Shown here: in pieces, positions 8,487 through 34,832 of the stretch
How positions within the stretch are numbered: the first letter of the stretch is position 1
Layout of the letters: every line of letters begins with the position of its first letter
NCBI GenBank assembly: GCA_016794525.1
Contig: JAEUJY010000006.1
Location: 1-64,000 of the forward strand
Length of the DNA stretch: 64,000 nt
Direction of reading: 5' to 3'
Origin: Myxococcales bacterium
Lineage (GTDB): Bacteria; Myxococcota_A; Polyangia; Haliangiales; Haliangiaceae
The notes under the pieces: model-generated
Database searches by the model: none
Told to the model about the DNA's origin: nothing
The model's input: only the letters and a program-made list of their open reading frames with translations
Program-made: the position numbers and the translations under genes

Positions 8487-10217
8487 CTACTTGCGGCGGC
8501 CGAACACGTCGTCGTCGCTGCCGGTGCCCCGCCCGCCGCCGCCGCGCTTGCCGCCGCCGCGCTTGCCGCCACGCTTGCCGCTGCCGGCTCCCGGCTGCTT
8601 GATCGTCGCGCTGCCCGAGCCCACCGCCGAGCCCGCGCCCACCCCGGCGACCGATCCCGATCCCGTCGCGGATCCCGAGCCCGTTCCCGTCGCGGATCCG
8701 GATCCCGTCACCGATCCGGATCCCGATCCCGTCACGGATCCGGATCCCGTCACCGATCCGGATCCCGATCCCGTCACCGATCCGGATCCCGATCCCGTCA
8801 CGGATCCCGATCCCGATCCCGTCACCGATCCGGATCCCGATCCCGTCACGGATCCCGATCCCGTCACGGATCCCGATCCCGTCCCCGTCTCCGCCCCGGT
8901 CCCCGCCGCGCCGCTCGGGCTCGCCTCCTTCGCACCGCTCCCGCCGCTCAGCACCAGCACCGCCGCGACGGCGGCCGCGGTCACGACGATCGCGATCGCC
9001 GCGATGCGCCCGATCCGCTTGGGCGTCGTGATCGGCGCCGACGTGCGCGCCGGATACGCGGGCGCGGCCACCGGCCCGGTCGCGTCGGCGGGCATCGGCG
9101 TCATGCTCGGGTTCGAGCCCGGCGTCGTCCACGGCGTCGGCGTCGCCCCGGCGGCGCCCACCGCGGGCATCGCGCCGCCGCCGGCCCACGGCGTGGTCTT
9201 GCGCGGCGGGTACGCCGCGACCGCCTCGTCGGCGCGCGGCAGGTTGATCGCCGGCGAGCTCTTGCCGTCCCACGGGACGCTGGGCATCGACGCCCGCTGC
9301 AGCCGGCGCTCGATGCGCTCGACGGCCTGGCTCGCCGCCATCGGATCGCGGGCGAACGGCGCCAGCGCCGCCGCGACCTCGGCCACGGACGGATAGCGCG
9401 CGTCGGGGTTCTTCTCGAGGCAGTGGCGCACCACCGCGTCGAGGCCGGGCGGCAGCGGCACGGTGAACGGCGCCGGCGGATCCACCGCGACCTTCACGCA
9501 CATCTCGCTGAAGCTCTCGGCCTCGAACGGCCGCGTGCCCTCGATCAGCTCGAACAGCACCGCGCCCAGCGACCACACGTCGGTGCGCGCGTCGACCGTG
9601 CGCGCCGATCGCATCTGCTCGGGCGACATGTACGCCGGCGTGCCCAGCATCGACTGGGTCTGGGTCAGCGACACGTCGGTGTTGTTCGCGACCTTCGAGA
9701 TGCCGAAGTCGAGGAGCTTCACCAGCGGCGATCCATCGCTGCGCCAGGTGACGAAGAAGTTCGACGGCTTGACGTCGCGGTGGACGATGCCGAGCGCGTG
9801 GGCCTCGGACAGCCCCTCGCACGCCTGCACGATGAACTCGACCGCCAGCGCCGGCGCGATGCGCTGGCTCTGCTCGAGCATGTTGTCGAGGTCGACGCCC
9901 TCGAGGTGCTCCATCACCAGGTACGGCAGGCCCGTGTCGAGCGTGCCGACGTCGAGGACGCGGGCGACGTGCTCGTTCTTCAGCTTCCACGCGGCGTGGG
10001 CCTCGCGCAGGAAGCGCTGGTTGGCCTCGTCGTCGCCGGCGATGTCGGCGCGCAGGAACTTGATCGCGACCGTCTCGTTGAGGTGGAGGTGGGTCGCGCG
10101 CGCGACGACGCCCATGCCGCCCTGTCCGAGGATCGCGTCGATCCGGTACTTGCCGACCAGCACCGCGCCCAAGGCGACGCCGAGGTTCTCCTCGGCACTG
10201 GCAGTCGTCGCCTTCAC
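8487..10217 (-). CDS. Transmembrane Ser/Thr protein kinase with Gly-Ser repeat tail
   Basis: A 576-residue kinase. The N-terminal domain has the glycine loop GQGGMGVV (31-38), catalytic Lys53 (AIKFL), HRDVKPSN, DFGISK and GTPAYMSPEQ, so it should be active. A Pro/Ala linker follows, then one membrane helix (IAAIAIVVTAAAVAAVLVL). The C-terminal side is a long (G-S-V/A-T-G-S) low-complexity stretch ending in a basic GKRGGKRGGGKRGG segment and an acidic SDDDVFGRRK tail. The start is the GTG at 10217, because TACGAT ends 6 bases before it; an in-frame ATG at 10325 would add an unconserved-looking 36 residues. The C-terminal part is expected outside the cytoplasm and could sense or bind the envelope; this is inference. 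Confidence 0.9.
   Translation of the reverse strand: MKATTASAEENLGVALGAVLVGKYRIDAILGQGGMGVVARATHLHLNETVAIKFLRADIAGDDEANQRFLREAHAAWKLKNEHVARVLDVGTLDTGLPYLVMEHLEGVDLDNMLEQSQRIAPALAVEFIVQACEGLSEAHALGIVHRDVKPSNFFVTWRSDGSPLVKLLDFGISKVANNTDVSLTQTQSMLGTPAYMSPEQMRSARTVDARTDVWSLGAVLFELIEGTRPFEAESFSEMCVKVAVDPPAPFTVPLPPGLDAVVRHCLEKNPDARYPSVAEVAAALAPFARDPMAASQAVERIERRLQRASMPSVPWDGKSSPAINLPRADEAVAAYPPRKTTPWAGGGAMPAVGAAGATPTPWTTPGSNPSMTPMPADATGPVAAPAYPARTSAPITTPKRIGRIAAIAIVVTAAAVAAVLVLSGGSGAKEASPSGAAGTGAETGTGSGSVTGSGSVTGSGSGSVTGSGSGSVTGSGSGSVTGSGSGSVTGSGSVTGSGSGSVTGSGSATGTGSGSATGSGSVAGVGAGSAVGSGSATIKQPGAGSGKRGGKRGGGKRGGGGRGTGSDDDVFGRRK
8648..8886 (-). repeat. In-frame tandem repeat encoding (GSVTGS)n
   Basis: An imperfect tandem array built from the blocks GATCCCGATCCCGTCAC and GATCCGGATCCCGTCAC in units of 18 or 30 bases. 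All units keep the kinase reading frame and encode alternating GSGSVTGS steps. Length polymorphism by slippage would change the tail without a frameshift. Confidence 0.8.
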
Positions 10218-33157: not shown

Positions 33158-33784
33158 ATGCGCACCTCGCTGCTCGTCGCCGCCGCCCTCGCCACTGCCT
33201 CGCTGACCACCGCCTGCAACCACTCGGCGGTGGTGAAGCGCCCGGCCGACCCCAAGCTCGACGCCGCCTACACCACGATGTGGGTGCGCGATCTCCACGC
33301 CCACGTCCAGGACGGCGACATCGTGCTCCGCCGCGGCTACGCGGTGCTGTCGGACATCATCCTGCTGGTGACGCCGGGCGCGCCGATGAGCCACGCCGCG
33401 ATCTACGACGCCTCGACCGACCACTTCATCGACGCGGTGTCGAGCGGCGTGCGCGAGGTGACCGCCGAGCAGTTCCTCGGCGCGTCGCACCGCTGGATGA
33501 TCGTCCGCCCGAACCTGCCCGCCGCCGAGCGCCACGCCGCGGTGGCCCGCGCCCGGGCCGCGCTCGGCACCGGCTTCGACTTCTCGGGCTTCGTCGGCCT
33601 CGACAACGCCGACCGCTTCTACTGCTCGGAGCTGGTGGCCTGGGCGCTCGGCGTGCGCGACACCGTCTTCGCCGACGACATCCTGGTCACGCCGGCCGAG
33701 CTCGAGGAGGTGGGCCCGACGATCTACGCCTCGGCCGACCGCGGCGACCTGCCGACCGCGCAGGTCGACCCGTACTGGCAGTGA
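33158..33784 (+). CDS. YiiX-like permuted NlpC/P60 cysteine amidohydrolase, lipoprotein
   Basis: A 208-residue protein with a lipobox (TTAC, Cys20). The mature domain matches circularly permuted NlpC/P60 proteins of the YiiX/YaeF group: DGDIVLRRG (52-60), His79 in MSHAAIYDAS and Cys156 in FYCSELVAWA, with His before Cys as expected for the permuted fold. Such enzymes cleave amide bonds in peptidoglycan or act on lipids/polyamine amides. A signal-peptide-bearing, lipid-anchored form suggests action on the cell wall. The ATG at 33158 has no clear Shine-Dalgarno. Confidence 0.82.
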   Translation: MRTSLLVAAALATASLTTACNHSAVVKRPADPKLDAAYTTMWVRDLHAHVQDGDIVLRRGYAVLSDIILLVTPGAPMSHAAIYDASTDHFIDAVSSGVREVTAEQFLGASHRWMIVRPNLPAAERHAAVARARAALGTGFDFSGFVGLDNADRFYCSELVAWALGVRDTVFADDILVTPAELEEVGPTIYASADRGDLPTAQVDPYWQ

Positions 33785-33836: not shown

Positions 33837-33842
33837 TATCGT
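33837..33842 (+). promoter_or_regulatory. -10-like TANNNT, leaderless, for gene at 33849
   Basis: TATCGT ends 6 bases before the ATG at 33849, supporting that ATG, upstream of the in-frame TGA, as the true start. Confidence 0.55.
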
Positions 33843-33848
33843 CGGGGC

Positions 33849-34832
33849 ATGAACCACCGCTGGTCGCGCCTCCTCGTCGTCGTGCTCGCCGTCGCCGTCG
33901 CCGGGGCCGGCTGAAAGGGCATGAAGCCCAAGCCCAAGGAAGATCCCAAGGCCGAGGGCTCGACCACCGACGTCACCAGCGATCGCTCGATGCAGGTGAT
34001 GAACTACTACGTCGAGTTCTTCAACGATCTGATCGACGAGATCCCCGACCTGACCCGCAGCTACTGGGAGCGCGCGGGGGACGCCGGCCTCGACGTCGAG
34101 ACGATGACCAAGTGGGGCAACGTCGTCTGCGCCGGCGCCGGCTGGATGAAGATGAAGCGCGAGGAGGCCAAGACCCGCGTCGGCCAGATCGAGAAGCAGT
34201 CGAGCGGCGAGTTCGCCAAGATGCCGCCGCTGGCCAAGGCCATGTACGACGCCGCGGTCGCCTACGCCGAGAAGCGCGACGCGATGTGCGCCTACGTGAA
34301 GGGCGGCGAGTTCAAGAACGACGCCGGCGCCAAGGCCAAGGCGCTGCACACCGACCTGGTCGCGGCCAGCGAGGCCTGGGGCAAGGCGGTCGACGCGCTG
34401 GCGGTCGATCTGGAGCGCGTCGAGGACGCGCAGTCCAACGCCGAGCTGGCCAAGCACGAGGCCGGCAAGAGCTACGGCTACTGGTTCCGGCTGGCGACGA
34501 TCCGCTCCAACGAGTTCCTGCGGGTGGCGCGCCGCGACGGCGCCAAGGCCGAGGCCGGCCTGCCCAGGCTCGAGGAGGCCATCGCCGGCTTCGTCGCCTT
34601 CGCCAAGGACAAGCCCAACGCCCACGCGTCGTTCGTCGGCTTCGGCAAGCAGGTCGATCGGATGCAGCAGGCGCTCACCAAGCTCAAGCCGGCGCTGGCC
34701 AAGGCCGCGACCCCGGCGGCCAAGGCCGCGGCGATCGAGGCGGCGATGGAGAACCTGCTGTCGATCTACAACACGATGGTCAGCCTCCACAACACGCTGG
34801 TCGAGGCCGAGGGCAACGGGCAGCTGAAGTAG
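33849..34832 (+). CDS. DUF3829-like lipoprotein with in-frame TGA at the lipobox Cys
   Basis: Reading from ATG 33849 gives a signal peptide (MNHRWSRLLVVVLAVAVAGAG), then TGA at codon 22 (33912-33914), then 305 more residues in the same frame, starting KGMKPKPKED. TGA sits exactly where a lipobox cysteine (TGC) would be. The downstream domain (VMNYYVEFFNDLIDEIP..., CAYVKGGEFKNDAGAKAKALH) resembles DUF3829/YiiG-type lipoproteins, which are normally lipid-anchored. Options are selenocysteine at the anchor, a TGC-to-TGA mutation or sequencing error, or a start at ATG 33921 (303 residues, no signal peptide). The TANNNT element favours 33849. A weak SECIS-like fold is possible: AGCCC 33931-33935 with GGGCT 33956-33960, enclosing GGA-AGA-TCC. 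Confidence 0.6.

Follow-up and report, generated by a model that had tools for sequence, protein, structure and literature searches.

An in-frame TGA in place of the lipobox cysteine codon in a Kofleriaceae DUF3829 lipoprotein gene is probably the result of a TGC-to-TGA change

Organization of the locus

The stretch of DNA analyzed (64,000 nucleotides, hereafter the window) comes from a Kofleriaceae MAG of 9.8 Mb in 177 contigs, 96.7% complete. The features of the gene at 33849-34832 are given in Table 1. Codon 22 of its open reading frame is a TGA, in frame with ATG 33849, and the same frame continues past it as 305 intact, strongly coding codons. The read-through product was found to match PF12889 (DUF3829) over residues 48-311 with an E-value of 6.5e-17 and a score of 62.5 bits (cut-off 26.8), which bore out the DUF3829-like continuation described in an earlier note on this DNA. 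An AlphaFold model based on three sequences was all-helical with a mean pLDDT of 80 and with residues 1-31 disordered; the start of the body (residues 1-30) is K/P-rich and had a pLDDT of about 25. Thus, of the marks of a DUF3829 lipoprotein, the domain and the signal peptide are present, but the codon for the lipobox cysteine is TGA.

Table 1. Coordinates of the features of the DUF3829 gene in the window
Feature	Position	Strand	Basis
TATCGT, -10-like element of the leaderless class (TANNNT, 6-7 bases before ATG)	33837-33842	+	Sequence; TANNNT enrichment before 443 confident ATG starts
Signal peptide, 21 codons, MNHRWSRLLVVVLAVAVAGAG	33849-33911	+	Translation; alignment to the signal peptides of the orthologues, which end in AAAC
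TGA in frame in the codon position of the lipobox cysteine	33912-33914	+	TGC in both orthologues
Expected bSECIS region; sole fit to the spacing and G rule is the 3-bp stem GGA-AGA-UCC	33915-33962	+	Enumeration, fold scan
Body, 305 codons and stop (TAG 34830-34832), intact, DUF3829 (PF12889), all-alpha	33915-34832	+	Translation, Pfam, alignment, structure model
Next in-frame ATG, 6 bases past the TGA, putative start	33921-33923	+	Open reading frame list

TANNNT elements were found to end 6-7 bases upstream of ATG in 44 of the 443 confident starts of this genome (about 10%), against a background of 0-4 starts at each offset beyond 12 and about 1-2 per offset further upstream. This peak indicates that leaderless transcription is common in this genome. 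Since the TATCGT in front of ATG 33849 has a spacing of 6 and fits the TANNNT class, the start that had been considered probably used is credible. The likeness of TATCGT to the leaderless promoters of other genes held for the class but not for the exact hexamer, which is rare in this genome. Judging by the own-genome stretches and the window, this Kofleriaceae lineage appears to use leaderless transcription often, beside SD-like motifs at 4-6 bases.

Restart at ATG 33921 appears possible from the sequence despite a poor ribosome-binding site (AAGGG lies one base from the ATG) and is predicted to give a DUF3829 protein of 303 aa that would stay in the cytoplasm without a lipid anchor.

The product of the adjoining upstream gene (33158-33784) is lipoprotein-like, and its lipobox (TTAC) is intact. 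Its CSELVAWAL stretch appears reminiscent of NlpC/P60-like (YiiX-type) peptidases.

Orthologues and state of the gene

Among 144 relatives and 30 genomes of the family, close orthologues were found in only two genomes, namely, G003 of the same genus (54-55% identity to the window protein) and G010 of the same family (60-61%). Both have AAAC-KK at the site with TGC as the cysteine codon, and the TGA of the window gene falls exactly in that Cys column, as the earlier note had placed it. No UGA-bearing relative was present in the 144 genomes. A single-sequence scan over 84,980 species returned no relative, and an alignment-based scan over 84,980 species returned the same two orthologues only, both with Cys. 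Therefore, the proposed alternation of TGA and TGC, or recurrence of UGA in other family members, was not seen in the two orthologues available. Because five of the six genus-mates, four of these five being 94-99% complete, have no copy, the DUF3829 gene is patchy and dispensable in the clade.

Past the TGA, GC3 was 0.98. Body columns in which exactly one of the three sequences was odd were counted; the window sequence was the odd one in 14, G003 in 58 and G010 in 40, and relaxed selection on the body was not seen in this three-sequence column comparison. In the signal region, the window was the odd sequence in 8 of 24 columns. Directly before the TGA, the lipobox reads GAG in the window and AAA in the orthologues, positions -3 and -1 being changed to Gly. 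Gly at -3 had been regarded as not ideal, but it occurs in 3 of the 46 Cys lipoproteins detected in this genome, and it is therefore tolerated. The absence of decay in the body means that the change is recent, that it is an assembly error or that the body is still made. It had been proposed that Sec insertion would be refuted by orthologues with TGC only, together with a copy otherwise decayed; the former was observed in both orthologues, whereas the latter was not.

Selenocysteine machinery of the genome

The genome was found to contain selA (536 bits against a cut-off of 268), a tRNA-Sec with the anticodon TCA (72.9 bits) and a selD with one in-frame TGA (GGG-TGA-AAKL). Of the genes that the earlier note had named for a search, only selB was absent from the assembly above the cut-off, the two best matches being one ordinary EF-Tu and one protein of 388 aa that resembles EF-Tu. 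selB was found in 25 of the 36 genomes of the relatives set, including five of the six genus-mates, and in three genus-mates it belongs to a conserved cluster in which a serS-like gene (name read from the sequence) is no more than about 10 kb away. For serS, an essential gene, this assembly gave only a stray match of 23 bits against a cut-off of 302. Because this cluster neighbour is also missing, the lack of selB is best explained by a gap in the assembly, probably a region of roughly 10 kb left unassembled together with serS, and it was rejected as a refutation of Sec. With selA, tRNA-Sec and a UGA-containing selD present, missing sel genes do not refute Sec, and the organism very probably decodes UGA as Sec.

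Several further observations were made on these genes. Among relatives with SelD over the cut-off, UGA was present in 20 of 28 genomes and absent from 8; within one genus of the family (g5), it was present in G010, G013 and G018 and absent from G015, G017, G019, G020 and G021. This alternation suggests repeated Sec/Cys exchange. The EF-Tu-like protein of 388 aa, divergent and additional to the ordinary EF-Tu, is encoded at L004:1216-2382 (G000:C102), and matches to the selB model with a similar score, about 147-162 bits, were obtained in several relatives. One relative has two tRNA-Sec genes of equal score 7 kb apart (G019:C163:3030-3125 and 10027-10122), reflecting a duplication or an assembly repeat.

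Search for a bSECIS element

The bSECIS model (PMC13188914) specifies a loop of 3-9 nt, G in the first two positions, an upper stem of at least 4 bp, a distance of 16-37 nt from the UGA and an MFE of at most -7.5. No such element was detected by fold scan after TGA 33912-33914, and exhaustive enumeration yielded only the 3-bp stem listed in Table 1. The weak SECIS-like fold that had been noted at 33931-33960 was rejected, as its upper stem has only 3 bp and enumeration offered no alternative. The hairpin GGGC-AUGAA-GCCC was also rejected because it begins 3 nt past the UGA, far too near.

As controls, all 13 SelD TGA contexts extractable from these genomes passed the model with stems of 6-8 bp. 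Random Cys-codon contexts of this genome (n=600) passed by chance in about 48% of cases, and in 18.5% with a stem of at least 6 bp. Considering that every SelD context and about half of the random ones passed, the failure of the candidate is real evidence against Sec insertion. The local fold near the TGA was not unusual, with z-scores of -1.56 (33912-33960, against shuffles), -1.25 and -0.37.

Stop codons at lipoboxes and the odds of the position

The own-genome scan covered 2.33 of 9.8 Mb (24%), sampled by stretches. Uniform scanning for lipoboxes gave 221 with Cys, one with TGA (the window gene), none with TAA and one weak match with TAG, which had low hydrophobicity and was judged to be due to chance. 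The sensitivity of a first, slightly stricter version of the scan was about 0.69. A second, weak TGA lipobox from an earlier scan fell below the stricter coding score and was rejected. In about 288,000 coding codons of the 2.33 Mb, no clear open reading frame was convincingly interrupted by an internal stop; other same-frame stops between coding segments are succeeded by a start within 0-8 codons and were read as gene boundaries.

The earlier note held that random mutation would strike the lipobox codon in only about 1 of 327 positions, a figure that proved misleading. With TGC taken as the earlier codon, there are 101 paths by which a single step creates a stop in the gene. Nine of these make TGA (six start from Trp codons and three from Cys codons), and five precede the in-frame ATG 33921; the lipobox accounts for one in each case. 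There are only five early paths because no single base change turns CTC, GTC, GCC or GGC into a stop. The chance of hitting the lipobox is thus about 1 in 100 nonsense paths, 1 in 9 TGA paths (unweighted) or 1 in 5 paths before the next ATG. The 1-in-327 figure thus makes the coincidence look about 3 to 60 times greater than it is, according to which of these conditions is applied. Some coincidence remains because the assembly contains few nonsense codons. In GC-rich signal peptides, where almost no other codon is one step from a stop, nonsense changes would hit the lipobox Cys surprisingly often.

Interpretation of the TGA

The earlier note had left a choice between Sec insertion and a TGC-to-TGA change. 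The latter is better supported: with a probability of about 0.88, a single C-to-A change occurred at the lipobox Cys of a DUF3829 lipoprotein gene, as either a real recent nonsense allele or an error in the MAG consensus. This is favored by TGC in both orthologues, the lack of a bSECIS beside an unremarkable local fold when the SelD and many random contexts pass, the dispensability of the gene, the single TGA against 221 Cys lipoboxes and the small number of competing mutational targets. Against it stand the rarity of other nonsense codons, which makes the lipobox position a coincidence, the undecayed body and the very probable ability of the organism to decode UGA as Sec.

Of its two forms, the real recent nonsense allele is the more likely. 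The C-to-A change would turn the lipobox TGC into TGA, and translation from the leaderless start would stop after the 21-residue signal peptide, so that export of a lipoprotein would not occur. The most that might be made is a cytoplasmic protein lacking the lipid, via restart at the ATG at 33921, or traces of product via leaky reading of UGA-A; no Sec would be inserted at UGA 33912. The other form, in which the TGA is a consensus or sequencing error only, the codon in the cell is TGC and a normal, working lipoprotein is made, is a tentative possibility. It is consistent with the intact and conserved body, the TGC of the orthologues and the origin of the sequence in a MAG of many contigs, where C-to-A concerns one base, but the consensus looks good, since no other clear open reading frame in the 2.33 Mb is interrupted.

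It was also considered that the gene had been re-purposed, so that the signal peptide now forms a short leader open reading frame and the functional product is a cytoplasmic protein started at ATG 33921. The closeness of this ATG to the TGA, the conserved body and the change of lipobox positions -3 and -1 to Gly agree with this; however, the poor ribosome-binding site and the K/P-rich start, which has the character of a lipoprotein linker, make it improbable.

Least probable of all is that a very weak or non-canonical SECIS directs Sec insertion at UGA 33912 and that this Sec, as the N-terminal residue, carries the diacylglyceryl modification of a selenoether-anchored lipoprotein; such a lipid-anchoring role would be the first structural one for Sec. 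For it speak the Sec machinery, with selB probably in the gap, the exact Sec/Cys column and the undecayed body. Against it speak the lack of a bSECIS fitting the model, Cys in both orthologues with no UGA relative in the genomes and species scanned, and the uniqueness of the TGA lipobox in the 24% of the genome covered. In addition, the site is a lipid-attachment residue and the lipobox Cys is not redox-active. The title of one study (PMC1794560) frames Sec as evolving from redox-active cysteines, and no description of Sec at a lipobox, or of lipidated Sec, was found in the literature searched.

Therefore, the candidate is not supported as a new kind of selenoprotein. If Sec were lipidated here, it would have a non-redox, structural role, and it would have to be asked how a selenol is processed by Lgt and Lsp. 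An in-frame UGA in the Cys/Sec column of homologues, one mark of a bacterial selenoprotein, is present in the window gene; caution is needed, as such a UGA, even in a Sec-decoding genome, is insufficient to call a selenoprotein.

Comparison with known systems

SelD of the clade (example L047) shares with the window gene an in-frame TGA aligned with the Cys of homologues, in an organism with selA, selC and selD. In contrast to the window gene, which has no bSECIS, this SelD has one of 6 bp (GGACCU-CGUGC-AGGUCC) at a spacing of 26. Among solved DUF3829-like structures, 3rh3 of B. thetaiotaomicron (Foldseek probability 1.00, E-value 0.05) and 4yjw (probability 0.84, E-value 1.5) resembled the window model in their helical fold, with weak E-values and 14-16% sequence identity. 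The Kofleriaceae DUF3829 lipoprotein orthologues (L019/L090 and L020/L091) have in common with the window gene the signal peptide, the Lys-rich linker and the all-helical DUF3829 domain at 54-60% identity, but their lipidation site is encoded by TGC (Cys), whereas that of the window gene is TGA.
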